Source of the DNA: Stutzerimonas stutzeri
Lineage (GTDB): Bacteria; Pseudomonadota; Gammaproteobacteria; Pseudomonadales; Pseudomonadaceae
Assembly: GCF_024448715.1 (NCBI RefSeq)
Contig: NZ_JAMOHZ010000001.1
Coordinates: 310,001-374,000, forward strand
Length of the DNA stretch: 64,000 bases
Reading direction: 5' to 3'
The first letter of the stretch is position 1, and each line of letters begins with the position of its first letter. The notes under the pieces were generated by a model. That model was not told the origin of the DNA, made no database searches, and worked only from the letters and a program-made list of their open reading frames with translations. Both the position numbers and the translations under genes were made by a program. Below, in pieces: positions 8,280 through 60,266 of the stretch.

Positions 8280-9520
8280 CGCGCTGAACGCTCCTTGTCA
8301 CTCTGAGTATCGACCTTGGGATTTTCGGCTGCCTCTTCGGCGAGCTTCTTGCGGTCTACCACTTCCACTTCGCTGCCGTCACGCAGGCGGTCGGTGCCTT
8401 CCATGACGATCCGCTCGCCAACGCTCAGACCGTTGATAATGACTGTCTTCTCGCCGTTGCTCGGCCCCACTTCCAGCGTGCGCAGCTCGACCTTGGAATC
8501 TTCGCCGACCACATAGGCGTAATTGCCGCGCGAACCGAACTGCAGAGCCGCCGAAGGAATCAGGATGGCGTCATCCAGAGTCTCTACGCGCAGGCGGACG
8601 TTGACGAACTGATTGGGTATCAGCAGCTCTGCCTCGTTGTCGAAGCGAGCCTTCATTTTCAAAGTGCCTGTGGTCGGATCGATCAGGTTGTCGACGCTTT
8701 CCAGCACACCCTCGCCAAAGAGGATCCGCTCGCCACGGTCCCAGGCCTGCACCGTCAGTTCATCGCCGCGGCGAAAGCGGCTGATGACCGGTGGCAGTTC
8801 ACCTTCTGGCAACGTGAAGCTGATCGCCATTGGCTGGGTCTGGGTGATGACGACCAGTGGCGTGGTGTCGTTGGCAGCGACAAGGTTGCCCTGATCCAGC
8901 TGTCTAAGGCCGACGCGACCATCTATTGGCGCGCGGATCTTTGTGAACTGCAGGTTCAACTTGGCTTCGTTGACCGCCGCCTGGTTGGCCGCAAGCGTCC
9001 CCTGATACTGATTGACCAACGCCTGCTGAGTATCGAGGGTTTGCTTGGCGATACTGTCTTCGGCGAACAATCCTCGATAGCGCTTGAGATCGACCTGTGC
9101 GTTCTGCAGCAACGCGCGGTTCTGCTGCAGCGTGCCTTCTGCCTGTTGCAGCGCCACCTCGTAGGGGCGCGGATCGATGACCGCAAGCAGATCGCCAGCA
9201 CTGACTCGTTGACCTTCATCGAAACGCACGTCGACCAGCTCGCCGGCGACACGGCTGCGCACGTTCACCGTATTCAGCGGCGTGACGGTACCGAGTGCTT
9301 TGGAATAGACCTCGAATTGCCCCTGTTCGACCGATGCAACGCGCACCGGTGTCGGCCCAGCGAGCGCGCCGAAAGCGGCACGCCCGCCGCGCTGTGGCTG
9401 AGGTGTCTCGGATGCAGTTGGCCATAGCCACCAAAGCAGCAACGCAATAGCCGTAACCACGACGCCAATGATCAGCCAGCGCCGCGCGGAGCCGGTAGAA
9501 GAAGTGTTTGCCTCGGACAT
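8276..9520 (-). CDS. muxA: RND efflux periplasmic adaptor (membrane fusion protein), MuxA/MdtA type
   Basis: Links the RND permeases to the outer-membrane factor. From the ATG at 9520 ([10 protein letters not shown]..., 414 aa) there is a cytoplasmic N-tail, one transmembrane anchor (residues ~14-32, [19 protein letters not shown]), a lipoyl half-motif around residue 75, an alpha-helical hairpin with [21 protein letters not shown], the second lipoyl half ([19 protein letters not shown]) and a beta-barrel/MP domain. A longer frame starting upstream at 9577 adds 19 non-family residues and is not preferred. This is the first gene of the operon, divergent from the flippase gene at 9804; the ~280 bp between them must hold the promoters of both. 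Confidence 0.92.
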
Positions 9521-12882: not shown

Positions 12883-13383
12883 CTAGTTGAGCGATGCGAT
12901 GGCAGCTTCGTAATCGGGCTCGGAACCAATTTCGGCGACCAGTTCGCTGTGCAGCACTTGGTCCTGTTCGTCCAGCACGACGACCGCGCGCGCAGATACG
13001 CCAGCGAGCGGGCCAGTGGCGATCAGCACACCGTAATCCTCGAGGAACTCGCGGCCACGCATGGTCGAAAGATTGACCACGTTCTCCAGGCCCTCGGCAC
13101 CGCAGAAGCGCTTCTGGGCAAACGGCAGGTCGGCGGAGATACACAGCACCACCGTGTTATCCAACCCATTGGCTTGAGCATTGAACTTGCGCACCGAAGT
13201 GGCACAAGTCGGTGTATCGATACTCGGGAAGATGTTAAGAACCTTGCGCTTGCCGGAGAAGCTGCTCAGCGCAACATCAGCCAAGTCACCGCCAACCAAG
13301 CTGAACGGCTTGGCTTTCTGACCGACTTGCGGGACGGCACCAACAACCTTGATCGGGTTGCCTCTGTGGGTAATTTCAGTCAT
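12883..13383 (-). CDS. tpx: Thiol peroxidase (atypical 2-Cys peroxiredoxin)
   Basis: Reduces H2O2 and alkyl hydroperoxides with thioredoxin as reductant. In the 166-aa product, peroxidatic Cys60 lies in [16 protein letters not shown] and resolving Cys94 in [11 protein letters not shown], with a third Cys at 81; these match the family positions (61, 95, 82 in E. coli Tpx). The start at 13383 is chosen because AAGGAG lies five bases upstream; an upstream in-frame ATG at 13401 would add six residues and has no SD. It is downstream of, and in the same direction as, the alanine symporter gene, about 50 nt apart, but a functional link is not obvious. Confidence 0.95.
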
Positions 13384-13432
13384 GTGAACTCCTTCGGTCA
13401 TAGGCCGCGAGAGGCTCTCGCGGCCCGGATTA

Positions 13433-14785
13433 TCAGGCTACCGGGTTACGGGCAAAGTATTCCTTGGTCAACTTGACCACGACCGGACTCAGCAGCAATA
13501 GGGAGATCAGGTTGGGAATGGCCATCAGCCCGTTGAGGGTATCGGCAAACAACCAGGCGAAATCCAGCTGCGCGATTGCGCCGAACGGTACCGCCAGTAC
13601 CCAGACGACGCGAAACGGCCAGATCGCCTTGGTGCCGACCATGAATTCCCAGCACCGCTCACCGTAATAGCTCCAGCCCAGGATGGTTGTAAAGGCGAAT
13701 ACCACCAGGGCGATCGTCAACACTGCAGCCCCGAATCCAGGCATGGCCGATTCGAACGCGGCGGCCGACAGTGCAGCACCGCTTTCGCCACCCGTCCAGA
13801 CGCCCGAGCAGACGATTGCCAGACCGGTAATGGAGCAGATGATAATGGTATCGATGAACGTCCCCATCATGCCGATCAGGCCGGAGCGCACGGAACTCTG
13901 CGTGGTGCCGGCTGCCTGCGCGATACCGGCAGTACCCAGTCCTGCCTCGTTGGAAAAAATACCGCGCGCCACGCCGAAGCGAATCGCGGCCATGACGGCC
14001 GCACCGGCAAAGCCGCCAGTGGCAGCGATTGGCGTGAAGGCATGGGTAAAGATAAGGTCGAATGCCCTCGGGATTTCAGCCGCATGGACCACCAGCACCA
14101 CAATACCTGCGATTACATAGGCCACGCACATGAACGGCACCAGCGCGGCGGCTACTGCGCCGATCCGCTTGATGCCGCCCAGGATAACCAACCCGACGAA
14201 CACCATGGTGACCAGGCCGGTGACCCACAGCGGCACCGAGAAGGTGCTCTCGAGCGCAAGCGCCATGCTGTTCACCTGCACCATGTTGCCGATTCCGAAA
14301 CCGGCCAGCCCGCCGAAGATCGCAAATGCGCCACCCAGCCATAACCAGCGCTTGCCCAGGCCATTCTTGATGGCATACATCGGGCCACCGACATGCTCGC
14401 CGCGATCATCCTTCTCACGGTAATGCACCGCCAGGACGACCTCACAGTACTTGGTCGCCATTCCCACCAGCGCCGTGCACCACATCCAGAACAGCGCACC
14501 AGGGCCGCCGAGGAAGATCGCAGTGGCGACGCCGGCGATATTGCCGGTACCGACGGTGGCGGCCAAGCAAGTCATCAGCGCCTGGAACGGGCTGATTTCG
14601 CCTGTTGACTCATCGCCCTTTGCGCGTCCACGCCAGATCAGCGCAAAGCCGGTTCCGATGCGCACCAGAGGCATGAACTTGAGCAAGATCATGAGGAAGA
14701 AACCGGTGCCGAGAATCAGCACCAGCATGGGAGGTCCCCAGACGAGACCGTTAACGCTATTGACCAGGTTTTGCAGGAATTCCAT
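13433..14785 (-). CDS. Alanine/glycine:cation symporter family (AGCS) protein
   Basis: A sodium-coupled amino acid importer of the inner membrane, 450 aa with about 10-11 hydrophobic segments. Family signatures are visible: the [31 protein letters not shown] region near residue 75-110, [12 protein letters not shown] near 135 and the [17 protein letters not shown] motif near 280. D/L-alanine or glycine is the usual substrate of AGCS members; the exact substrate cannot be read here. The leader region upstream (14786 onward) is long and featureless. Confidence 0.92.
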
Positions 14786-15206
14786 TCAAGGCACCCTTAT
14801 TGATTATGTTAGACATCCTTGCCCAAGCGGCCCGCGTCGGAGCGCAGTAGAAGCACAACGCCTATAGCCTGACTGCCTCTCCCGCTCTACCGAAACGGCC
14901 AGTAATGACCCCGACTTCATATGCTGGGTACTACTACCGACAACTTGCAGAACCCTTGCCAGAGCCCTGTAATAGCTGCGACGCAAGGAGCGACCGAGCG
15001 ATCCTACCACCACCACAAGCGCTTGGCGCAACGTCGTTTTACATGCCGTTCGCACAGCATCGAAAAGACACTGAGAGGCTTGCAGATCGACCGATCAGTC
15101 ATCCCTGGTTGCCGGTTACGTAAGCCCAACAGAGTAGCCCAAGGCAGCAGCGCCGCCAGTCGATTCGCCACGTTTTTTTCAAGCGTAGATGCAACGCCGT
15201 AGCGCC
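14786..15206. other. Intergenic region without recognisable gene
   Basis: This 420-bp stretch lies between the symporter gene (start) and tamB (stop), both on the minus strand. Short open frames on both strands lack ribosome binding sites and protein-like composition. I see no tRNA cloverleaf, strong terminator or repeat; it presumably carries the promoter of the symporter gene. Confidence 0.5.
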
Positions 15207-18200
15207 TTAAAAATTACGCCGATAGAACACGTCAAGCGAACTGGCCAGCCCGCTAGCGGCTTCGAGAAAAATACGCTTGGTCAGCCGGTAACGCAGAGCA
15301 ACATTATTGGCAGATTCGAATACGCCAACCCCGTAACGGAGTGTCAGACGGTCGGTCAGTCGCCCGCTGGCGACTACGCTGGTCTCGGCGCCGCTGCCTT
15401 CGGTATCGAGTTGAAAATCCTGGATGCCCAGACGCTGCGCAACGTCTCCGGTTATTGACGCACTACCGGCTAGGCCGAGCCCGAGGGCGGCCTGTGCCAG
15501 CATATTGTTATCGCCAGAATCGGCACCCAGCGGCCGCCCAAGCACAAGATAGGACAAGGCCTGCTCCTGGCTCATCGCGGGTTCGGCAAACACGTTGACC
15601 CGCGGCTGTTCGGCGCTGCCGGTGATGCGCAAACCAGCGATGACGTTATCGGCCTCGATCCGCCGAATGGCCTCGATATTCAGGAATGGCTGTGACAGTA
15701 CGCCGGTAAACAGCAGTTGCGCCCGGCGTATGGTCAGGCGCTGGCCGTAGGCCCTGTAGCGCCCATTGTTGAGATTGAGCTCGCCGCGGGCATCGAGGTT
15801 GTCACCGATATGCAAATAACCGGCAAGGTCAGCAGTCAGGCCGAAACCTGAAAACCGCAGCCGGTCCTGGCCCACTTCGACATCGATGTCCATACGAATT
15901 GCCAACGGCGTCTGCGCCTCTTCAGCCTCTTCGCCGATGATCACCGTGTCTTCGGAAACCTTGACGGTTGACGGCGGCAATTCGCGAATAGTGATATCGC
16001 CGCGGGGCACGCGCACCTTGCCGGTCACGGCCAACTGATCATCGGCCAGTTGCAACCGTAGATCCGGCTCCACCTCCAGTTCGGCATAAGGCTCGACGAC
16101 AACCGGCAGCCGGCTGCCACTCACGCGCATATCCAGGTCCAGCGCGTCGCGCCAGTCCAGCGTGCCGGCGATCTCGCCCCGCCCCTGCTCGCCGCTACGC
16201 CAGTTGCCATCGAGGCGCACACGCTCACCGTTGATGACGGCGCGAATCTGCAACTGCTCGAAACTGACCGGTAGCTCGCTGCCAGCAATCTCGCCGCCGC
16301 TGAGGGTCAGCTCACCGTTGACCTGCGGCTGCTGCAAGCTTCCGGACAGCTCGCCATTGCCGTTCAGCTGCCCCTCCAGCCGCTCGACCTGAGCGACGAA
16401 GGGCTGAGCCACGCAGAGATCGAAATCGCTCAGGCGGAAGCTGCCGGAGATGGCTTTCGCATCAGTGCTTGGATCAACTTGCAAGCGCACATCGAGTTCG
16501 CCAAGTTCGCCGCCTTCGAAGCGTAATCGGCTATCGATTCGTTGCGGCGTCAACTCGCTGTTCAACGCCAGGGTTGCATAGGGAAATTCCAGCCACCGCT
16601 CGCCGTCGCGCATGCGCAGCGTGCCTGGACCTGCATCGACGCGAATGGTCCCGCTGGGACCCGTGCTCGGTAGATCCAGCGACAGGTCGGCGTTGACCTC
16701 GCCTTGCCAGATCAGATTGTTCGGCAAGTAGGCACCGATCGATTCCAGAGGAAAATCACGCAGGTGATAACGCAGCTGTGGATCAGGCAGTAGGCGCTGA
16801 TCCTCGGCACACAGCGTGGCGGAACCAGAGCCCCAGCAGTGTGCACCAAAGGTGATCCGGCCGCTGGCCAGCCGCTCCAGCGATGCCGGTTGCTGCAGCG
16901 ACCACTGCTGCCCCTTTGCGTCCAGCTCGGCCCGCACCAACCGCCCTTGCCAATCCTCGCCGTGCAGCCCGCCGTTCAGCGCCAGGGAAAAATCCAGCAA
17001 CGGGCCCTGCAATCGCAGTTCGGCCTCGTGCGCCTGCCGGCTGCCGTTGGCATTCACCTGCAATTGGCCGAGATCGGTTTCACCTGCCCGCAACCCGTCA
17101 GCGATGAGCCGCAGTTGACCACGTTCCCCCTCTTGAAGGTTGGCTGTCAGCTGCAGGCGCTCCACGTGGTTTTCCTGAAACGCAACATTGTTTCCCTCGA
17201 CCGCCAACTCGCCCTGGGGCGCTTGAGGTGTACCCGCCAGGCTCAGGTTACCGGCCAGCTGACCTTGCAGATCAGGCCAGAGTTGCGCCAAACGCGGCAA
17301 ATCCAGCTCCAGACTCGCCTGCAACGTCTTGGCCCAGCGGCCGCTGCCCTGGACCCGGTTGTCACCGAGCTGTAGATCAATGCGGGGGACACTCCAAGTG
17401 TCGTCCTGACCGCTCGCCTCCAGCTGTAGATGTAGCGGCTGCTTGCGCAGCGTGCCGTCCAGATCAAGATGCGCTTCGGCTTGTAATTGCTCGTCGCGCA
17501 GGGTGCCGCGGCTGCTGAGAATGCCACCGAGTTGGCCTGGCAATTCGGCGACCCAGTAGGAAGGATCGAGCCCGCTCAGATTCAAGGTGGTATTCCAGTC
17601 GATACCGTCGGCGAAGCCCACGCTTAGATTTCCGGTGGCCGCGCCCTGCCCGGCCTGTAACTCCAGTTGTGGCAGGTGCACAATTTCGAGGTCGCCGCTG
17701 ATAGGGCTTTGCAAGGTGAAGTCGCCGGAAGGCCCAGTCAGCGCCGCATTGAAGTTGCCTAGGTAATTGCCGTCTTCATACTGCAATTGTGCGTTTAGCG
17801 TGCGCAGCGCCACGGGCGGCTCTTCCACGCCTGGATACAGCCTGCGCCAAGGAAAATCGCGCCAGGCCAATTCCGCTTCGCCCGCTAATCCATCCTGCCA
17901 ATTGACCTGCCCGTTCAAGCTGATCCGCCGACCCTCGTCGACATCCAGCTGTAGCTCTTCCACCTGCGCCTGAGTGGCGTCGATCAAGCCGCTCAACGCG
18001 ATGCCGACCGCGCCGCCCTCGCCTTGAAAGCTGCCCTCGCCGATCACCCGGTAACCCTGCTTCAGATCGCCCTCGGCGGTCAGCTCAAAACTGTCCAGGC
18101 GCAGCGCATCAGGCAACTCAGGGGTGGCCTTGAAGCGCTCGATCACCAACAGCAGATTCGCCGGCAGCTCCGGCTCCAACGGGCGTACCCGGCCACTGAG

Positions 18201-54091: not shown

Positions 54092-55462
54092 TTAGGTTTT
54101 CAAACTTTCACGGAAGGCCGGATCGTCCAGGTACGCCACGTTGAGACGCGTCCAGGGGACGGGGACGTTACGGTTTACAGCGAAGATCGAACCAGGGGCG
54201 AGCATTACGCCTTTGCTCAGACAATGGCGGGTCAGGTCGTTGGTGTCATCGACACCGGGAAAACGGGCCCAGAGATAGAGGCTCTGTTCTGGACGGCAGA
54301 AAACTTCGGCATCCAGTTCATCGAGGATTTCCAGTCCGCGACGTGTGGCATCCCGGAGCCGATCCTGCAGGCGCGCCAGGTGTCTGAGGAAGTGCCCTTC
54401 CCCCAGGATCACGTCAATGGTGCGTTCGCTGTATTCGGCGCCGCTGTTGTGCAGGAGCATCTTCAGGTCGGCCAGTTCCTCGATGCGCTGTTTGCTGCCA
54501 GCGATAAAACCGACCCGCAGTGCCGCTGAGATCGATTTTGAAAAGCTCCCCAGATACAGCGTACGGCTCAGTTGATCCAGGGCCGAGAGCTTGACCGACG
54601 AACTTGGCTTGAAGTCGGCCATGGCATCGTTCTCTACGATGAGCAGGTCATGGATATTGGCGATCTGTAGCAGTCGATGCGCCTTGGCTGGCGAGAGGTC
54701 GGACCCAGTAGGGTTATGCCCGATGGACTGCAGAAAGAACAACTTGGGTTTGTGCCGCTTGAGGATACGCTCCAGTGCGTCCAGGTCAGGGCCGTCCGCT
54801 TGGCGAGGCACCCCGAGCATGCGCGCGCCTTGCAGCTGCAACTTACCGAACAGAGGGTAGTAACCCGGGTCCTCCACCAGCACGACGTCGCGCGGCATCA
54901 CATAGCGGCGAATGATCAAATCCATCCCGTGGTTCGCGCCGAGAGTCGTGACGACCTGCCTTGGCGAGACGGTGATCGCGTAGTCTGCGAGCTTTTGAAT
55001 CAGCCGTTGGCGCAGCCCTGGATTGCCAAGACGCGTGCCATAGCGAAACAGGGTTGTGACTCCTCCCCTCACCACCTGGCGGTGAAACCTGTCCAGGCGC
55101 ATATCCATCAGCCACTCCACCGGTGGAAATCCTTCACCTAGATGCGAGTGTCCCGGCTCGCGCACGAACTGCTGGCGCATCATCCAGATGGTGTCCAGCG
55201 CGCGGGTATAAGGCTCCGACTCATCGTCCTCCGTGCTGATCGCTGGTGCGTCGCAGACAAAGAAGCCGCGGCCATGGCGGCCTTCGACCAACCCTTGCGA
55301 AGCCAGGTGCTCATAGGCGGCGATGACCGTGTTTTTCGAGTACCGGTGCAGGCGCATGTACTCGCGTAGCGAAGGCAGCTTGTCCCCGGCCTTGAAAGCG
55401 CCATCGGCTATCTGCTGCGCAATGGCTGCGGCAACTTTTTGCGCAAGCGTCTGACGAGCCAT
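54092..55462 (-). CDS. MocR-type regulator: GntR HTH fused to a PLP-dependent aminotransferase-like domain
   Basis: 456 aa. N-terminal GntR-type winged HTH (MARQTLAQKVAAAIAQQIADGAFKAGDKLPSLREYMRLHRYSKNTVIAAYEHLASQGLVEGRHGRGFFV), linker, then a fold-type I aminotransferase domain with TTLGANHGMDLIIRRY, FLQSIGHNPTGSDLSPAKAHRLL, ENDAMADF and the PLP-binding Lys in YLGSFSKSISAALRVGF. MocR proteins sense amino or vitamin-type ligands through PLP. It is divergent from mvaA and is the only regulator in the module, so control of the mevalonate genes is likely. ATG 55462 is chosen; a 20-residue upstream extension crosses the candidate operator. Confidence 0.88.
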   Translation of the reverse strand: MARQTLAQKVAAAIAQQIADGAFKAGDKLPSLREYMRLHRYSKNTVIAAYEHLASQGLVEGRHGRGFFVCDAPAISTEDDESEPYTRALDTIWMMRQQFVREPGHSHLGEGFPPVEWLMDMRLDRFHRQVVRGGVTTLFRYGTRLGNPGLRQRLIQKLADYAITVSPRQVVTTLGANHGMDLIIRRYVMPRDVVLVEDPGYYPLFGKLQLQGARMLGVPRQADGPDLDALERILKRHKPKLFFLQSIGHNPTGSDLSPAKAHRLLQIANIHDLLIVENDAMADFKPSSSVKLSALDQLSRTLYLGSFSKSISAALRVGFIAGSKQRIEELADLKMLLHNSGAEYSERTIDVILGEGHFLRHLARLQDRLRDATRRGLEILDELDAEVFCRPEQSLYLWARFPGVDDTNDLTRHCLSKGVMLAPGSIFAVNRNVPVPWTRLNVAYLDDPAFRESLKT

Positions 55463-55506
55463 GGTGGAGTTCCGGTGAGAGTGCAGGCTCGAACTGTCTC
55501 GCGAAA

Positions 55507-55530
55507 CTGTACCTTCTTTCAAGGATACAG
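55507..55530. promoter_or_regulatory. Candidate MocR operator in the mocR-mvaA divergent region
   Basis: Inverted half-sites CTGTACC (55507-55513) and GGATACAG (55523-55530) separated by nine bases, CTGTA...TACAG at the edges, in the 121-bp gap between the two divergent starts. Assignment by position only. Confidence 0.4.
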
Positions 55531-55552
55531 ACGGGCTACCGTTGACGCATCC

Positions 55553-55560
55553 AACAACAA
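55553..55560 (+). promoter_or_regulatory. A-rich Hfq/Crc-type motif in the mvaA leader
   Basis: AACAACAA, within CCAACAACAACTGAC, about 24 nt before the mvaA start and just upstream of its GAGGAG; matches the AAYAAYAA pattern. Confidence 0.45.
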
Positions 55561-55583
55561 CTGACTCCCCGAGGAGCGCCCTG

Positions 55584-56870
55584 ATGTCCGTTGACTCCCG
55601 CTTGTCCCCATTCCGAAACCTTTCCCCTGGCCAGCGCCTCGAGCACCTTCAGCAGCTGCTCACTTTGCCCGAAGCAGACACTGCCCTGCTGCGTGATGTC
55701 GGCGCGCTGCCGTTGGAAATTGCAGACGGAATGATCCAAAACGTGGTGGGCAAGTTCGAGTTGCCTTACGCCATCGCCAGCAACTTCCAAATCAATGGTC
55801 GCGACATCCTGATCCCGCTGGTGGTCGAGGAGCCGTCCATCATCGCTGCGGCTTCATTCATGGCGAAGCTGGCGCGCCCGACAGGTGGGTTCCTCACCTC
55901 CAGCAGTGCGCCGCTCATGCGCGCCCAGGTCCAGATCGTGGGCGTGGATGATCCCTGCAACGCCCGCCTCAGCCTGCTGCGCAACAAGGAGGAGATCGTT
56001 GCCCTGGCCAACAGCAAGGACCAGTTACTGAACAAGCTGGGCGGCGGCTGCCGGGACATCGAGGTGCATACCTTTATCGAGAGCCCACGGGGGCCGATGC
56101 TCGTTGCACACCTGATTGTCGACGTACGCGACGCCATGGGCGCTAACACGGTTAATACCATGGCCGAGGCCGTGGCACCTTTGATGGAGCGGCTCACCGG
56201 CGGCAAGGTGCGCCTTCGCATCCTTTCTAACCTGGCCGACTTGCGCCTGGCGCGTGCCCAGGTGCGTATCGCGCCCGAACAGCTGGACACCACCGACTAC
56301 AACGGGGCAGATGTGATTGAGGGCATCATCGACGCCTATACGTTCGCCGCGATTGACCCGTACCGGGCCGCGACCCACAACAAGGGCATCATGAACGGCA
56401 TTGACCCACTGGTAGTCGCTACCGGCAACGATTGGCGCGCAGTGGAAGCAGGCGCGCATGCCTATGCCTGTCGCAACGGGCACTACGGCTCGCTGACGAC
56501 CTGGGAAAAGGACGGCAGCGGCCATCTGGTCGGCACCATCGAGATGCCCATGCCGCTGGGCTTGGTGGGCGGCGCAACCAAGACCCATCCCCTGGTGCAG
56601 CTTTCCCTGCGCATCCTGGGTGTGAAGACCGCCCAGGAGCTGGCTGAGATTGCCGTCGCCGTTGGCCTGGCGCAGAACTTGGGCGCTCTGCGGGCGCTGT
56701 CTACCGAAGGAATCCAGCGCGGCCACATGGCGCTGCACGCTCGCAACATCGCGTTGTCAGCCGGTGCACGCGGTGATGAGGTCGATTGGGTGGTCAAGCG
56801 CATGGTCGAGGCCAAGGACGTGCGCGCGGATCGCGCCGAAGCGCTGCTCAACGAGAAGCGCGGCCAATGA
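55584..56870 (+). CDS. mvaA: Degradative (class II) HMG-CoA reductase
   Basis: Converts mevalonate + CoA + 2 NAD+ to HMG-CoA in bacteria that use mevalonate as carbon source. The product is 428 aa, as in Pseudomonas mevalonii, and its catalytic residues fall at exactly the same numbers: Glu83 ([12 protein letters not shown]), Lys267 (HNKGIMNG), Asp283 ([12 protein letters not shown]) and His381 (HMALHARN). No membrane anchor is present, as expected for class II. GAGGAG lies seven bases before ATG 55584; the frame extends 14 codons upstream. It is followed by HMG-CoA lyase with a 4-nt overlap, indicating a catabolic, not biosynthetic, role. Confidence 0.96.
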
Positions 56871-57793
56871 GTACCGATGCGGTCAGGCTGGTTGAGGTCG
56901 GCCCGCGCGATGGCTTACAGAACGAGCCGCGCGCCTTGCCCGTGGATACTCGCGTCAGGCTGATCGAACGGCTCGTCGCGGCAGGCCTGCGCCACTTGGA
57001 AGTCGGCGCGTTCGTCTCGCCTCGCTGGGTCCCGCGGATGGCAGGTTCCGACGAGATCATGCGCTGCCTCGCTCCGTTGCCTAGCGTCACCTACAGCGCG
57101 CTGGTACCCAACGAGAAAGGCCTGAACTCGGCATTGAAAAGCGGCTGCCGCGAGGTCGCCGTGTTCGCAGCCGCCTCGGAAGCTTTCTCGCAGCGGAACA
57201 TAAACTGTTCCATTACCGAAAGCCTGGAGCGGTTTGAACCGGTCCTCAGCAAAGCCAAGGAAGGGGGCATAGCCGTGCGTGGCTATGTCTCCTGCGCGCT
57301 GGGTTGCCCCCTCAGCGGCGACGTTGAGATAGCCGAGGTTGTCCGGGTCAGCGCCGCGCTGTATGAGATGGGCTGCTATGAAGTCAGCCTGGGCGACACC
57401 ATCGGCACCGGCACGCCGGGCAAGACCCGCGCCCTGATTGAGGCCTGCGCTTCGGAAATACCGATCGCTGCCCTCGCCGGTCATTTCCACGATACCTACG
57501 GTATGGCTGCGGCCAACCTGCACGCGGCGCTGGAGGCCGGCGTTCGGGTATTCGACAGCTCCGTCTCCGGGCTTGGCGGCTGCCCCTATTCACCAGGCGC
57601 TACCGGCAATGTCGCAACGGAGGACGTCGTCTACCTGCTCCATGGCCTGGGTATTCAAACCGGCGTGAACTTGGACACGCTGGTGGACACCGGCACGTTC
57701 ATCGACCATGAGCTTGGTCGGCAGACGGCTTCACGTACAGCGAAGGCAATCAAGGCAAGACGGGAGCGAACGCTCGAACGCACCCCGACCTGA
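56867..57793 (+). CDS. mvaB: HMG-CoA lyase
   Basis: Cleaves HMG-CoA to acetoacetate and acetyl-CoA, the second step of mevalonate breakdown. 308 aa, TIM-barrel HMGL-like. Motifs: [12 protein letters not shown] (metal Asp, catalytic Arg), [24 protein letters not shown] (metal His pair) and the active-site loop [25 protein letters not shown] with the catalytic Cys. The ATG overlaps the mvaA stop (ATGA), so translation is coupled; the 27-residue upstream extension lies inside mvaA and is not used. Confidence 0.95.
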
Positions 57794-57805
57794 CGCGTTT
57801 TTCCC

Positions 57806-57818
57806 AATAACAACAAAA
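57806..57818 (+). promoter_or_regulatory. A-rich Hfq/Crc-type motif in the transporter leader
   Basis: AATAACAACAAAA after the mvaB stop and 25 nt before the small leader ORF; almost identical to the motif in front of dguC (both within CCCAATAACAACAA). Confidence 0.5.
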
Positions 57819-57842
57819 GCCCACCAGGGCAGGAGAAGCATC

Positions 57843-57905
57843 GTGGAATATTCAATGGCCAAGACCCGTGCCCTACGTCTCTCCAGGCAGGAGGCACCGC
57901 TATGA
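57843..57905 (+). CDS. Small leader ORF (20 codons) coupled to the downstream membrane protein
   Basis: A GTG start eight bases after AGGAGAAG opens a 20-codon frame (VEYSMAKTRA...RQEAPL) whose TGA overlaps the ATG of the next gene (ATGA). The SD quality and stop-start overlap suggest it is translated and couples to the gene at 57902, which also has its own AGGAGG inside this ORF. It could be a regulatory leader peptide, or the remnant of a lost binding-protein gene that usually occupies this position. No family similarity can be claimed for so short a peptide. Confidence 0.45.
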   Translation: MEYSMAKTRALRLSRQEAPL

Positions 57906-58381
57906 ACAAGCCCGAGCTCTACGAAGTCTGGGGTGACACCGTCGACAGCCGTCACCTGGTTATGGCAATCATCATTGGCGCCTGCGTCAGCCTAGCCACC
58001 TTCTATCTCGCCCAACACCTGCTGCTCGGCTTGGTCGAGTCGCCGCAGATGGCGCGGGCTTACGCCATGCTGACCGGCATTTTGGGTTGTCTAGCCGGTG
58101 GCGTGATCAGCGCCATGTTGTTCAAGCCCAAGCGAGAAGTCGTCAAGCATATGGCCGACCCGACGTTCCGCCAGCAGGTGCTCGCCGATCTGACGGCAGA
58201 GCATGGCACCCTGGGACGGCTGGATGAGCTGCCACCCGAAGTAGTGGCCGAATTACGTGAGCTGGCGCTCTATGACCTGTTCCGTGAAGCCGAAGCCGCG
58301 GAGGTCCGGCATGCCACCGAAGTGCCCTCGCCTGTCGATGCGCTACCTGCGCAAGTCAGCCTGAGCGGAGGGCGTTCGTAA
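57902..58381 (+). CDS. Small membrane protein in the TctB position of a tripartite-tricarboxylate-type transporter
   Basis: 159 aa with two predicted membrane helices (HLVMAIIIGACVSLATFYLAQHLLLGL, ~18-44, and MARAYAMLTGILGCLAGGVISAMLF, ~50-74) and a charged cytoplasmic-type C-terminus (DLTAEHGTLGRLDELPPEVVAELRELALYDLFREAEAAEV). Classical TctB proteins have four to five helices, so this is TctB-like only by position and overlap: its stop shares one base with the ATG of the TctA-type gene. AGGAGG lies seven bases upstream. Probably an accessory subunit of the transporter. Confidence 0.7.
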   Translation: MNKPELYEVWGDTVDSRHLVMAIIIGACVSLATFYLAQHLLLGLVESPQMARAYAMLTGILGCLAGGVISAMLFKPKREVVKHMADPTFRQQVLADLTAEHGTLGRLDELPPEVVAELRELALYDLFREAEAAEVRHATEVPSPVDALPAQVSLSGGRS

Positions 58382-59769
58382 TGGAAGGCTTACTCGACCA
58401 GATCCTCGTCGCCTTTGGTATGGGACTTATCGGCGCAGTGGTGTTCGCCGCCATTGGCCTGATTTCCGGGAGTGATGAAACCACCACCCTCGCCCCCTTG
58501 ACCCTACTGGTGGTGCTCCTTGGCGTTCCGCCGGAGGGTGTGTTCACCTTCTTTCTTGCAGGCGCGGTGGCCAAACATATGACCCACGCGGTTCCGACCG
58601 CCTTGCTGGGCATTCCGGGCGACACCATGGCCACGCCATTGATGGCCGAAGCCAATTACTTGCGAAAACTCGGCGTACCTCACATCGCGCTTCGCAAGAT
58701 GATTTCTGGCGGTGCCATCGCCGCGCTCGTTGCCGTGCCGTTGTCGGTGTTGTTCGCGGTGCTGTTGGCCCCGTTCGGTGATGTGATCAAGGAGTTCGCG
58801 CCATGGGTGTTTCTCTGTGCCGCGATCCTTATTGCCTACTTCTCGGCCGGTCGGTGGGCCTCGGTGCTGACCCTGGTGCCCTTCGTGCTGGTCATCGTCG
58901 CGCTGCAGACGTTGACCGCGCAGCATGGGGTGAAGCTAGGCGTAAGTTATTTTCTCGGCATCGCGATTGGTCCCCTCATCGCTTCATTGTTCGCGCTCAT
59001 GTCTCCAGGGGAGCGCGTTCGCATGCAACGTGACGGCGTGCGGGTGTTTTCACTATCGCCGGACGTGAAAAGCTGGGGCGGATACTTTCCGAACCCGCTT
59101 AAGGTGCTCGACAAACGCCAGACCGGCATGACGTTGGCCACGGCCGCAGTGTCGAGTGCAACCTTCGTCTTCAGCCCGGTAGCGATGACAGTCATCATGG
59201 GCGAAGTGATCGGAGCGCGGATCAAGCACGCCTACCATCGCCTCACGACCGTGATCACTGCGCGCAACGGTGTAACCGAGGCGACCTACATCGCCGAGGC
59301 GCTGATCCCATTGATCGCCTTCGGCCTGCCATTGAGCCCTGTCGCTGCAGGTCCTGCCGCCCCGCTGTTCAACGCCCCGCCGCGCTTCTCGGTCGATAGC
59401 GCCACCGGCGAGATCAACAACCTGCATACGTTAATGAGTACGTGGGAGTTTTTCGGCTACGGCATGCTGGCCGTGATCATTGCCATCTTGATCGCATACC
59501 CGTTCTCCATGAATTTTGCACACCGGGCGGCATCGTTCGTCTCGCGCAAAGTCAGTCACGAAGCAGTCATCGCCACTTTTGTTGGGCTTATTCTGGTGAT
59601 CGGCATCTGGGAAGGCGGTCTGCTTGGCTTAATGGTGATTCTCACCGCTACTCGGAGGTTTCCTCTCGCGCTTTCTCGGCTTCAACATCGGCGTCCAGTT
59701 CATGGGGTACTACACCGCCGTATTGACCGTGCCGGCTCTGTTGGCCCTGGGCGGATGACTCCTGGGTGA
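58381..59769 (+). CDS. Tripartite tricarboxylate transporter permease, TctA family, frameshifted near its 3' end
   Basis: Large ~10-TM permease (GAVVFAAIGLISGSDETTTLAPLTLLVVLLGVPPEGVFTFFLAGAVAKHMTHAVPTALLGIPGDTMATPLM, IAEALIPLIAFGLPLSPVAAGPAAPLFN), TctA-type. The frame as read gives 462 aa, but after LLGLMVILTAT the last ~40 residues (RRFPLALSRLQHRRP...) are not membrane-like. From 59651 a different frame reads LGGFLSRFLGFNIGVQFMGY ... VPALLALGG and stops at 59758, exactly the expected TctA end. A 2-nt loss in a CTCT run near 59650 would explain this. Co-location with mvaAB suggests mevalonate as substrate (inference). No TctC binding protein is present. Confidence 0.85.
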   Translation: MEGLLDQILVAFGMGLIGAVVFAAIGLISGSDETTTLAPLTLLVVLLGVPPEGVFTFFLAGAVAKHMTHAVPTALLGIPGDTMATPLMAEANYLRKLGVPHIALRKMISGGAIAALVAVPLSVLFAVLLAPFGDVIKEFAPWVFLCAAILIAYFSAGRWASVLTLVPFVLVIVALQTLTAQHGVKLGVSYFLGIAIGPLIASLFALMSPGERVRMQRDGVRVFSLSPDVKSWGGYFPNPLKVLDKRQTGMTLATAAVSSATFVFSPVAMTVIMGEVIGARIKHAYHRLTTVITARNGVTEATYIAEALIPLIAFGLPLSPVAAGPAAPLFNAPPRFSVDSATGEINNLHTLMSTWEFFGYGMLAVIIAILIAYPFSMNFAHRAASFVSRKVSHEAVIATFVGLILVIGIWEGGLLGLMVILTATRRFPLALSRLQHRRPVHGVLHRRIDRAGSVGPGRMTPG

Positions 59770-59777
59770 CGCCGAAT

Positions 59778-59815
59778 TCGCCCTGCCTCCCATGACGGGG
59801 CGATTGGCTTTTTTC
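59778..59815 (+). terminator. Rho-independent terminator after the TctA-type gene
   Basis: Stem TCGCCCTG pairs with CGGGGCGA (one G-U) and is followed by TTGGCTTTTTTCC, just past the end of the permease gene. Confidence 0.75.
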
Positions 59816-59820
59816 CTTTA

Positions 59821-60266
59821 GCGGTACGACCTTCGGTGCAGTACCTGGCCCAAGCCCTAGAGGCGATCGCAGTGCCAGCGCTGGAAAACTACCAAACACA
59901 AGGCGACTACTTACGCTTCAAGGCGAGTGCCGAACCTCGTGCGACGGGCTCAGGTAAAGTCACCGAGTTCCCCTACTGCTTCCCTCCAAGCAAGAACGCA
60001 TTGTTCATTCAGCAGACCAGTGACCTGCACCATCAATGCGACCGACCATGAAGGCGCTGGGTATTCGTTACCGTCCTCCGTACAATGCGCGCCACACGTA
60101 CGCAACCATGTGCTTAATGGCAGGCATGACACCTGCTTTCATCGCTAAACAGCTCGGCCATTCGTTACAAATTCTCCTATCTCGATACGCTCGTTGGATC
60201 GATGGCGAAGGTGATTGGAACGAAATGAATAAGCTGAAAATGGGACCAAAACGGGACCAAGCGTAA
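59821..60266 (+). pseudogene. Phage-type tyrosine recombinase (integrase) remnant, C-terminal part, frameshifted
   Basis: Two adjacent frames together give the C-terminal catalytic region of a Pseudomonas-type integrase. The first frame contains FPPSKNALFIQQTSDLHHQ and is broken at about 60033; the second continues with RPTMKALGIRYRPPYNARHTYATMCLMAGMTPAFIAKQLGHS, with the R-H-T-Y-A-T block and the LGH box, then YARWI with the catalytic Tyr, ending at 60266. One lost base in a TGG codon at the junction (HHQ-W-RPT) explains the shift. The N-terminal half and core-binding domain are absent, so this is a dead fragment, probably marking the edge of an old insertion. Confidence 0.85.

Follow-up and report, generated by a model that had tools for sequence, protein, structure and literature searches.

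P. mevalonii lives on mevalonate, and its mvaAB operon provides inducible mevalonate catabolism. Inducible mevalonate uptake by this organism was reportedly measured in the 1980s without being attached to a gene, and regulation of its mva genes is said to have been ascribed to MvaT. To our knowledge, bacterial mevalonate uptake is still an activity without a gene. Two other described groups of proteins are relevant here. Small two-helix proteins such as DUF485, DUF997 and similar ones are partners of solute:sodium symporters. The effectors of characterised MocR proteins are, as far as we know, all amines or PLP, and mevalonate is not an amine. Neither a mevalonate importer gene nor a MocR protein associated with mevalonate was found in the open-access literature (subscription papers were mostly outside this scope), nor did either appear in the passages retrieved by term search from PMC5320631, PMC13370337, PMC12292504, PMC13064465 and PMC3985676.

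Gene layout and enzymes

The window, i.e. the whole stretch of DNA that was analysed, comprises 64,000 nt of S. stutzeri (NZ_JAMOHZ010000001.1, 310,001-374,000), and all coordinates are window positions. As judged from sequence, and with a probability of roughly 80%, it holds a block for mevalonate uptake and catabolism, in which a TctA-like permease and its two-helix partner would act as importer and a MocR-type protein would switch the operon. The features are:

54092-55462, minus strand: MocR-type transcription regulator, 456 aa (Pfam GntR and Aminotran_1_2)
55463-55583, no strand: predicted divergent promoter/operator region with operator-like boxes
55584-56870, plus strand: mvaA, class II NADH-type HMG-CoA reductase (HMGR), 428 aa (PDB 1qax, TIGR00532)
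56867-57793, plus strand: mvaB, HMG-CoA lyase (NF004283)
57843-57905, plus strand: 20-aa ORF whose end overlaps the start codon of the following gene; its peptide lacks conservation
57902-58381, plus strand: membrane protein of 159 aa with two helices and a helical tail, without a Pfam family
58381-59769, plus strand: TctA-like permease, candidate mevalonate importer (PF01970)
59784-59802, plus strand: terminator-like stem-loop 3' of the permease (consensus match only)

Eight consensus matches to such stem-loops were counted in the region, where 5.1 were expected. The GC content of the block (61.3%, versus 60.3% for the window) gave no sign of foreign DNA and, when a tRNA-borne island was considered, the window was found to hold no tRNA gene. 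The window's right-hand flank did not follow the neighbouring metallo-beta-lactamase-like gene in any of 10 same-genus genomes having this gene, so that they offer no clean empty site.

Both enzymes were identified as the original prediction had it. The reductase was colinear with P. mevalonii HMGR over its full length (PDB 1qax, 776 bits), with 348 of 428 residues identical and the four catalytic residues of class II enzymes (E83, K267, D283 and H381) at the P. mevalonii positions; it also scored 402 bits against the degradative family TIGR00532, for a cut-off of 260. The HMG-CoA lyase matched NF004283 (430.8 bits, cut-off 246), and its gene overlaps mvaA by 4 nt (ATGA). The NADH motif Dx(V/L)xxxL, as given in a passage of PMC13370337, is carried by the window enzyme and was kept in a set of 100 HMGRs of at least 50% identity, some genomes being represented twice and L165 (49.9%) being left out: D146 in all 100, L/V148 in 97 and L152 in 99.

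The window's genome encodes Dxr. A single ORF was over the cut-offs for GHMP kinases, by the N-terminal as well as the C-terminal model, the former having been added because the latter put the kinase of L165 under its cut-off. This ORF we take to be IspE; three further GHMP matches were all sub-cut-off. Because Dxr is present and the sole GHMP kinase reads as IspE, the host would make its isoprenoids by another route, without a mevalonate kinase, and the reductase is most likely catabolic and not biosynthetic. Its predicted reaction follows from family membership and motifs: working in the oxidative direction, it would convert mevalonate + CoA + 2 NAD+ to HMG-CoA, which the lyase would split into acetoacetate and acetyl-CoA.

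Permease and two-helix protein

The permease does belong to the TctA family, as had been proposed (PF01970, 59.7 bits, cut-off 28.9), but the ORF as drawn is not intact. It is homologous in frame to 59646, and a homologous tail lies in another frame at about 59645-59758, with residues 424-459 encoded at 59645-59752; the out-of-frame part corresponds to the last ~39 residues. Six of seven relatives from the family sample align to the window permease only up to residue 422 or 423, and the seventh (G137) ends at residue 397, which is the end of its contig. At the break, the window is 5 nt shorter than the 98%-identical permease copy of G129. The 80 named loci described below yielded 78 distinct permease ORFs of 453-463 aa, L057 and L085 having been removed by duplicate and length filters, and the break is therefore a peculiarity of the window copy or of its assembly. 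This copy is probably damaged, as far as its reading frame tells, and the 'complete' module that had been announced is doubtful in the window genome, where uptake by the out-of-frame permease may be impaired unless the assembly is in error.

The block of the window genome could accordingly be a decaying relic, with enzymes kept and importer broken, which would be compatible with a role in mevalonate use for the family as a whole. This explanation is possible, although we lean against it. The out-of-frame permease end, set against the normal-length ORFs of the relatives, speaks for decay, as does the sporadic occurrence of the block in the genus (2 of 18 same-genus genomes among those listed). 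However, every other gene in the block has an open reading frame, the permease break may be an assembly error, and the first 422 permease codons differ from those of G129 at 22, 3 and 152 first, second and third positions, respectively, a pattern indicating selection on the gene until recent times.

Resemblance of this permease to better known proteins is remote. Its profile matched the host's standard TctA proteins weakly (hhalign probability 9.7%, E 0.003), two chance-level matches (E 0.58 and 0.83) were obtained against solved structures, and the AlphaFold model of the L050 permease, built from 29 sequences, was unusable (mean pLDDT 35).

The small membrane protein was modelled with the two helices expected of it (16-44 and 48-73, mean pLDDT 79). 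It had no Pfam match at 0.001, and a Pfam search of eight members at a loose threshold returned unrelated families only (best E 0.011). Its assignment as a TctB was rejected, hhalign against five TctB giving a probability of 2%. Since its gene adjoins that of the permease in all 79 testable loci of the 80, the protein is a candidate partner subunit, and the TctA-like permease, probably together with it, would bring mevalonate into the cell. As for the 'leader ORF' of the original prediction, an ORF does exist at 57843-57905 but it is not a conserved gene, and a leader peptide was rejected for want of conservation of its sequence. In 73 of 92 loci (window counted), the two-helix frame itself begins at the first start that has a ribosome-binding site. 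This start is out of frame in 13 loci, to which the window belongs, as do G129 (L033) and five P. putida-like loci; the other six could not be judged.

Distribution and variable parts of the block

Wherever its neighbourhood was readable, the permease lay beside a degradative HMGR and a divergent MocR gene, and never with unrelated catabolic genes instead. Among named genomes, the permease and two-helix genes were clustered with both in 79 of 79 testable loci (of 80), the distance from mvaA start to permease start ranging from 1.8 to 5.1 kb. These loci scored best among 298 related stretches, and their identity to the query spans only 76-84%; a more distant branch, in which the permease has different neighbours, could therefore be missed. 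With 298 such stretches in the 84,980 species genomes scanned, this type of permease is not very rare. The same linkage of permease, two-helix partner, degradative HMGR and divergent MocR was observed in six of six records of a plasmid collection, four of which were read in RefSeq annotation.

Two further samples were in agreement, the family, phylum, named-genome and plasmid sets overlapping in part. In the family sample (n = 148), the permease occurred in eight genomes, all of which had the MocR, mvaA, mvaB and two-helix genes. HMGR was present in 17 genomes of this sample, and in the nine without this permease nothing resembling mvaA was matched at E 1e-10 (22-23% matches at about 1e-7 were obtained in two), indicating that they hold other HMGR types. 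In the phylum sample (n = 398), the permease was found in seven genomes and a degradative HMGR over cut-off in 15; the two clustered within about 3 kb in seven of the seven (Fisher p 2e-11, relatedness not corrected), each time with a divergent MocR gene. The two-helix gene was clear in six of these seven and weak in G196 (L142), which had at one point been counted as lacking it until a looser search gave a match directly before the permease (E 1e-4, 32% over 80 residues).

Members of the alpha-, beta- and gamma-proteobacteria have the block, and plasmids carry it too. It is whole at two loci of P. putida, L088 and L089, whose HMGRs share 96.7% identity with that of P. mevalonii. Linkage of permease, HMGR and MocR in all testable loci supports the proposed conversion of imported mevalonate to acetoacetate and acetyl-CoA: it indicates a shared pathway but does not by itself identify the substrate of the importer, for which mevalonate is the candidate. 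Recurrence of the five-gene block held for permease, two-helix gene, HMGR and MocR but not for the lyase, which is an optional member. A lyase gene lies between reductase and transporter in 44 of the 79 blocks (45 if L122 is counted, in which it comes after the permease), and 35 have none in this place. All 20 tested genomes whose block is without a lyase gene had a lyase-like gene elsewhere, and a lyase encoded outside the block could split HMG-CoA in these hosts.

Such blocks, together with the reversibility of HMGRs, might suggest that the reductase runs reductively and that mevalonate leaves the cell through the permease, be it as a signal or as an overflow product. This is very improbable in view of the NADH-type motif, the membership in degradative family TIGR00532, the lyases present within the 44 blocks or elsewhere in the tested genomes, and the high identity to the enzyme of a host that lives on mevalonate.

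In 14 of the 79 blocks, a family III CoA-transferase gene (Pfam CoA_transf_3) and two small hydratase-like genes (FAS1_DH_region for one, no Pfam family for the other) lie between lyase and transporter, and some HMGR loci hold a CoA-transferase with an enoyl-CoA hydratase. These genes would suit the import of a mevalonate relative, such as 3-hydroxy-3-methylglutarate or 3-methylglutaconate, which would be CoA-activated and enter at HMG-CoA, the reductase being a side branch. We regard this as unlikely: the reductase is needed only for mevalonate, and it is the reductase that occurs in 79 of 79 testable blocks, far ahead of the CoA-transferase set and also of the lyase.

Mevalonate as the imported substrate also agrees with the genes found at degradative-HMGR loci without this permease, where TRAP (L164 and L161) or ABC genes (L160, L162, L163 and L166) lie nearby and fit a transport slot for the substrate of the reductase. 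No TctB or TctC was recognised inside the block; for TctC, this relates to one query against the window and 110 loci, by which a distant TctC could be missed. Apart from its own source locus, this query had matches in 10 loci, all outside the block. In Achromobacter L110, L118 and L125, a TctC-like gene lies at most 0.3 kb from the permease on the other strand, and a binding protein may serve these three loci. For the block in general, a TctC may be encoded elsewhere in the genome.

Regulator and comparison with described systems

The gene divergent from the enzymes was correctly predicted to encode a MocR protein, GntR and Aminotran_1_2 domains being recognised in its product. The PLP lysine (K310, numbered on a copy one residue longer than the 456-aa protein) and the PLP Asn and Asp were retained in 99 of 99 copies examined. 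Among the 25 NCBIfam matches listed, no MocR family reached its cut-off, the best being PdxR (218 versus 320 bits), and PdxR, GabR, EhuR, YczR, PtsJ and rhizopine MocR were all under their curated cut-offs. A term search of the MocR regulon survey PMC5320631 (main text) found no mention of mevalonate, HMG-CoA or TctA.

The intergenic region of the window contains three operator-like boxes: AACTGT (55492-55497), AACTGTACCTT (55505-55515) and GGATACAG (55523-55530). All 52 Pseudomonas-like MocR-mvaA regions, whose mvaA has an identity of 79% or more, contained the box ACTGTACC; of the 47 other regions, 42 contained ACTGTACC or GGTACAGT. AACTGTACCTT occurred 58 times in the 99 regions and once elsewhere in 1.86 Mb, counts that come from related sequences and hence are not independent. 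The boxes were missing from the intergenic regions of all four alphaproteobacterial plasmid loci. The ACTGTACC-type repeats of the shared promoter region may be the sites to which the MocR protein binds when it switches the operon in response to mevalonate or one of its products.

A more specific proposal is that permease and partner form a binding-protein-independent, mevalonate-specific two-part transporter, corresponding to the missing uptake genes of P. mevalonii, under a MocR controlled by an amine-free ligand. This we put forward tentatively, at slightly less than an even chance; if it holds, this MocR reads its ligand unlike any known MocR protein. The novelty lies in the transporter and regulator candidates, the enzymes being already known. 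The block supplies a named gene pair as candidates for bacterial mevalonate uptake; this candidate transporter, or its TRAP and ABC counterparts, might be of value in strains engineered to produce mevalonate or to be fed with it, and the MocR and its operator are candidates for sensing mevalonate. Recurrence across three proteobacterial classes and on plasmids suggests that mevalonate may be a commoner nutrient than the literature implies.

The short two-helix protein, whose gene immediately precedes that of the permease, is reminiscent of the partners of solute:sodium symporters as commonly described, but its permease is of another family and it lacks their Pfam assignment. With TctABC, the block shares a permease in Pfam TctA, whose plasmid relatives RefSeq calls 'tripartite tricarboxylate transporter permease'. 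It differs from TctABC in the score of this permease (474-509 bits are reached by the host's five standard TctA proteins), in a partner with two modelled helices where the small subunit TctB has four, and in having no TctC within the block. The regulator resembles MocR/GabR proteins in its GntR and aminotransferase-like domains, its conserved PLP residues and its divergent gene with repeated operator-like boxes, whereas it falls under the cut-offs of the named MocR families. The closest counterpart is the mvaAB operon of P. mevalonii, with the same two enzymes and the same route from mevalonate via HMG-CoA, and the block goes beyond it in having a specific permease with a candidate partner, and MocR encoded divergently.

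The block and the direction of its reductase

All five genes named in the original prediction, which had read them as a complete mevalonate-catabolism module with its own transporter and MocR regulator, were found in the window.

Features of the block in the window
54092-55462, minus strand, MocR gene
55492-55530, operator-like boxes
55584-56870, HMG-CoA reductase gene (mvaA)
56867-57793, HMG-CoA lyase gene (mvaB), 4-nt overlap with the reductase gene
57902-58381, two-helix protein gene
58381-59769, TctA-like permease gene

The reductase (HMGR) was colinear with that of P. mevalonii over all 428 residues (776 bits; 348/428 identical), had E83, K267, D283 and H381 at the expected positions and belonged to the degradative family TIGR00532 (402 bits, cut-off 260). 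It also displayed the NADH motif of HMGR, given as Dx(V/L)xxxL in PMC13370337. Among the HMGRs at least 50% identical to it (some genomes being in twice, and the one from locus L165, at 49.9%, being dropped), D146 was found in 100/100, L or V148 in 97/100 and L152 in 99/100. The window genome contained a single HMGR copy and a Dxr (510 bits). Only one of its ORFs was over the GHMP kinase cut-off, by both the C-terminal and the N-terminal model, the latter also giving three matches below cut-off; this ORF, with a prs-like gene after it, is presumably IspE. On these grounds the reductase is most likely catabolic. The enzymes of the block are textbook. Six CoA_trans matches in the genome, read as three subunit pairs, would be candidate routes for acetoacetate use.

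To the right, the block is bordered at 60036-60266 by a fragment similar to the end part of a phage-type integrase (Pfam E 0.002, under the cut-off). In G540, a genome of the same genus, an ORF 43% identical to this fragment over 60 residues (locus L206, 3116-4297) comes after the metallo-beta-lactamase-like gene that neighbours the block in the window, suggesting that the site may attract insertions.

Distribution and composition of the block

In the family sample, the permease was present in 8/148 genomes, with MocR, mvaA, mvaB and the two-helix gene alongside in all eight. In the phylum sample (398 genomes), it was found in seven, all of them among the 15 with a degradative HMGR over cut-off; the reductase lay within about 3 kb and MocR was present in 7/7, and the two-helix gene was clear in six, while the seventh, G196, gave a weak match for it (E 1e-4) immediately 5' of the permease. 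Fisher tests, with kinship not corrected, gave 2e-11 and 5e-9. Scanning 84,980 species genomes yielded 298 related stretches. In 79 of the best 80, MocR was divergent, mvaA, the two-helix gene and the permease gene were codirectional, and 1.8-5.1 kb separated the mvaA and permease starts; the 80th (L097) starts just 5' of the permease and cannot be judged. The core block also occurred in 6/6 records with the permease in a plasmid collection, two being Burkholderia replicons of >3 Mb and four alphaproteobacterial plasmids, on which RefSeq names a 'PLP-dependent aminotransferase family protein', a 'hydroxymethylglutaryl-CoA reductase, degradative', a 'hypothetical protein' and a 'tripartite tricarboxylate transporter permease'. 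The recurrence elsewhere that had been proposed as a check was seen, for the block with or without its lyase gene, in the family sample, the named loci, the plasmid records and the phylum-sample permease genomes, sets which overlap partly and whose counts are not to be summed.

The G196 block is remote (L142, 6370-10824; identities of 37% for the permease, 38% for MocR and 53% for the reductase); its weak two-helix match is at 9076-9282, and its reductase gene lies 3' of the permease rather than 5'. On three Acetobacteraceae plasmids (L215-L217), identity to the window was 74-75% for the permease but 52% for the reductase, as though the transporter had been retained and the enzyme replaced.

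In 44/79 blocks mvaA and the two-helix gene had a lyase gene between them, and in one more (L122) it lay directly 3' of the permease. Fourteen of the 44 (14/79) additionally contained a family III CoA-transferase gene and two small hydratase-like genes, one without Pfam match (for example L034 10693-11931 and L035 7186-9286), which may open another way into HMG-CoA, from 3-hydroxy-3-methylglutarate or 3-methylglutaconate. All 20 tested genomes whose block lacks the lyase (four from the phylum sample, the other 16 from the 35 named loci of this kind) had a lyase-like protein at least 50% identical elsewhere, three of these matches running across one stop codon.

The leader ORF formerly counted with the block did not keep this place. 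The first start with a ribosome-binding site was the two-helix gene's own in 73/92 loci (window included) and a different one in 13 (the window, its nearest relative G129, five P. putida-like loci and six others), while six could not be judged; this makes the leader ORF, of 20 aa, a by-product of the local sequence. Just 5' of the two-helix gene's ribosome-binding site, a short GCCC...GGGC hairpin (57819-57830) was kept, by eye, in many of the relatives inspected.

In the MocR-mvaA region, all 52 loci with mvaA at 79% identity or more had ACTGTACC; of the 47 remaining loci, 42 had either ACTGTACC or GGTACAGT. AACTGTACCTT occurred 58 times in the 99 regions versus a single time in the rest of these loci (1.86 Mb), counts that come from related sequences, hence are not independent, and include an L142 region taking in its own permease gene. 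Most Achromobacter loci had three regularly spaced boxes. The boxes were absent from the intergenic regions of the four alphaproteobacterial plasmid loci, the MocR of which was only 37-40% identical. All 99 MocR copies examined had kept the PLP lysine, asparagine and aspartate, although the predicted ligand would carry no amine.

The permease and the transport slot

Compared with relatives displaying normal ORFs, the window permease has its end, the last ~39 residues, out of frame. For six of its seven family-sample relatives the alignment stopped at residue 422 or 423; the seventh is cut at 397 by its own contig end. The G129 permease was 98% identical over 422 residues and its frame goes on, being lost in the window by a 5-nt difference; a profile of relatives picked up residues 424-459, absent from the ORF, at 59645-59752 in a different frame. 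Distinct permease ORFs of 453-463 aa were obtained from 78/80 named loci, L057 and L085 being left out by filters for duplicates and length. The claim of a complete module thus holds for the relatives, and the module is perhaps incomplete in the window genome, unless its assembly is in error. Codon differences from G129 over 422 codons (22, 3 and 152 at positions 1, 2 and 3) show purifying selection on the permease. The G129 locus (L033) also contains TRAP-transporter-like genes near the block, seen by eye (13319-16123).

The permease passed the Pfam TctA cut-off (59.7 bits against 28.9), but lay far from the five ordinary TctA proteins of the host (474-509 bits), and direct profile comparison with these was weak. 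No TctB-like protein was recognisable, and the TctC-like genes, found in 10 loci besides the query's source locus, were all outside the block, though in L110, L118 and L125 they lie on the opposite strand no more than 0.3 kb from the permease. The permease is therefore classed within the TctA family but not as part of a tripartite transporter, and its two-helix partner is left unclassified.

The eight phylum-sample HMGR genomes without this permease served for comparison. TRAP genes were in the HMGR cluster in two (DctP and DctQ in L164, DctQ and DctM in L161) and ABC-transporter genes nearby in four: Peripla_BP_6 in L160 and L162, Peripla_BP_4 in L163 and an ABC ATPase in L166, between mvaA and a lyase gene. 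L160 is a weak case, its binding-protein gene being on the opposite strand with another gene intervening. In L165 the cluster is biosynthetic and includes a GHMP kinase, and L159 has MocR and lyase with no recognisable transporter. A transport slot occupied by varied families beside one enzyme is to be expected for importers of that enzyme's substrate.

Probable mevalonate uptake and the P. mevalonii operon

The predicted import and catabolism of mevalonate is given a probability of about 0.8 for the family of blocks; confidence is lower for the import ability of the window's own copy. A search of the open-access literature did not find the block as a unit, its permease, the partner or the regulator. 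Inducible mevalonate transport has reportedly been shown in P. mevalonii, and MvaT is said to be the activator of mvaAB. The HMGRs of P. putida NBRC 14671 (L088) and W15Oct28 (L089) were 96.7% identical to the P. mevalonii enzyme, and both loci contained MocR, mvaA, mvaB, the two-helix gene and the permease, which suggests that the P. mevalonii operon probably lies in the same block.
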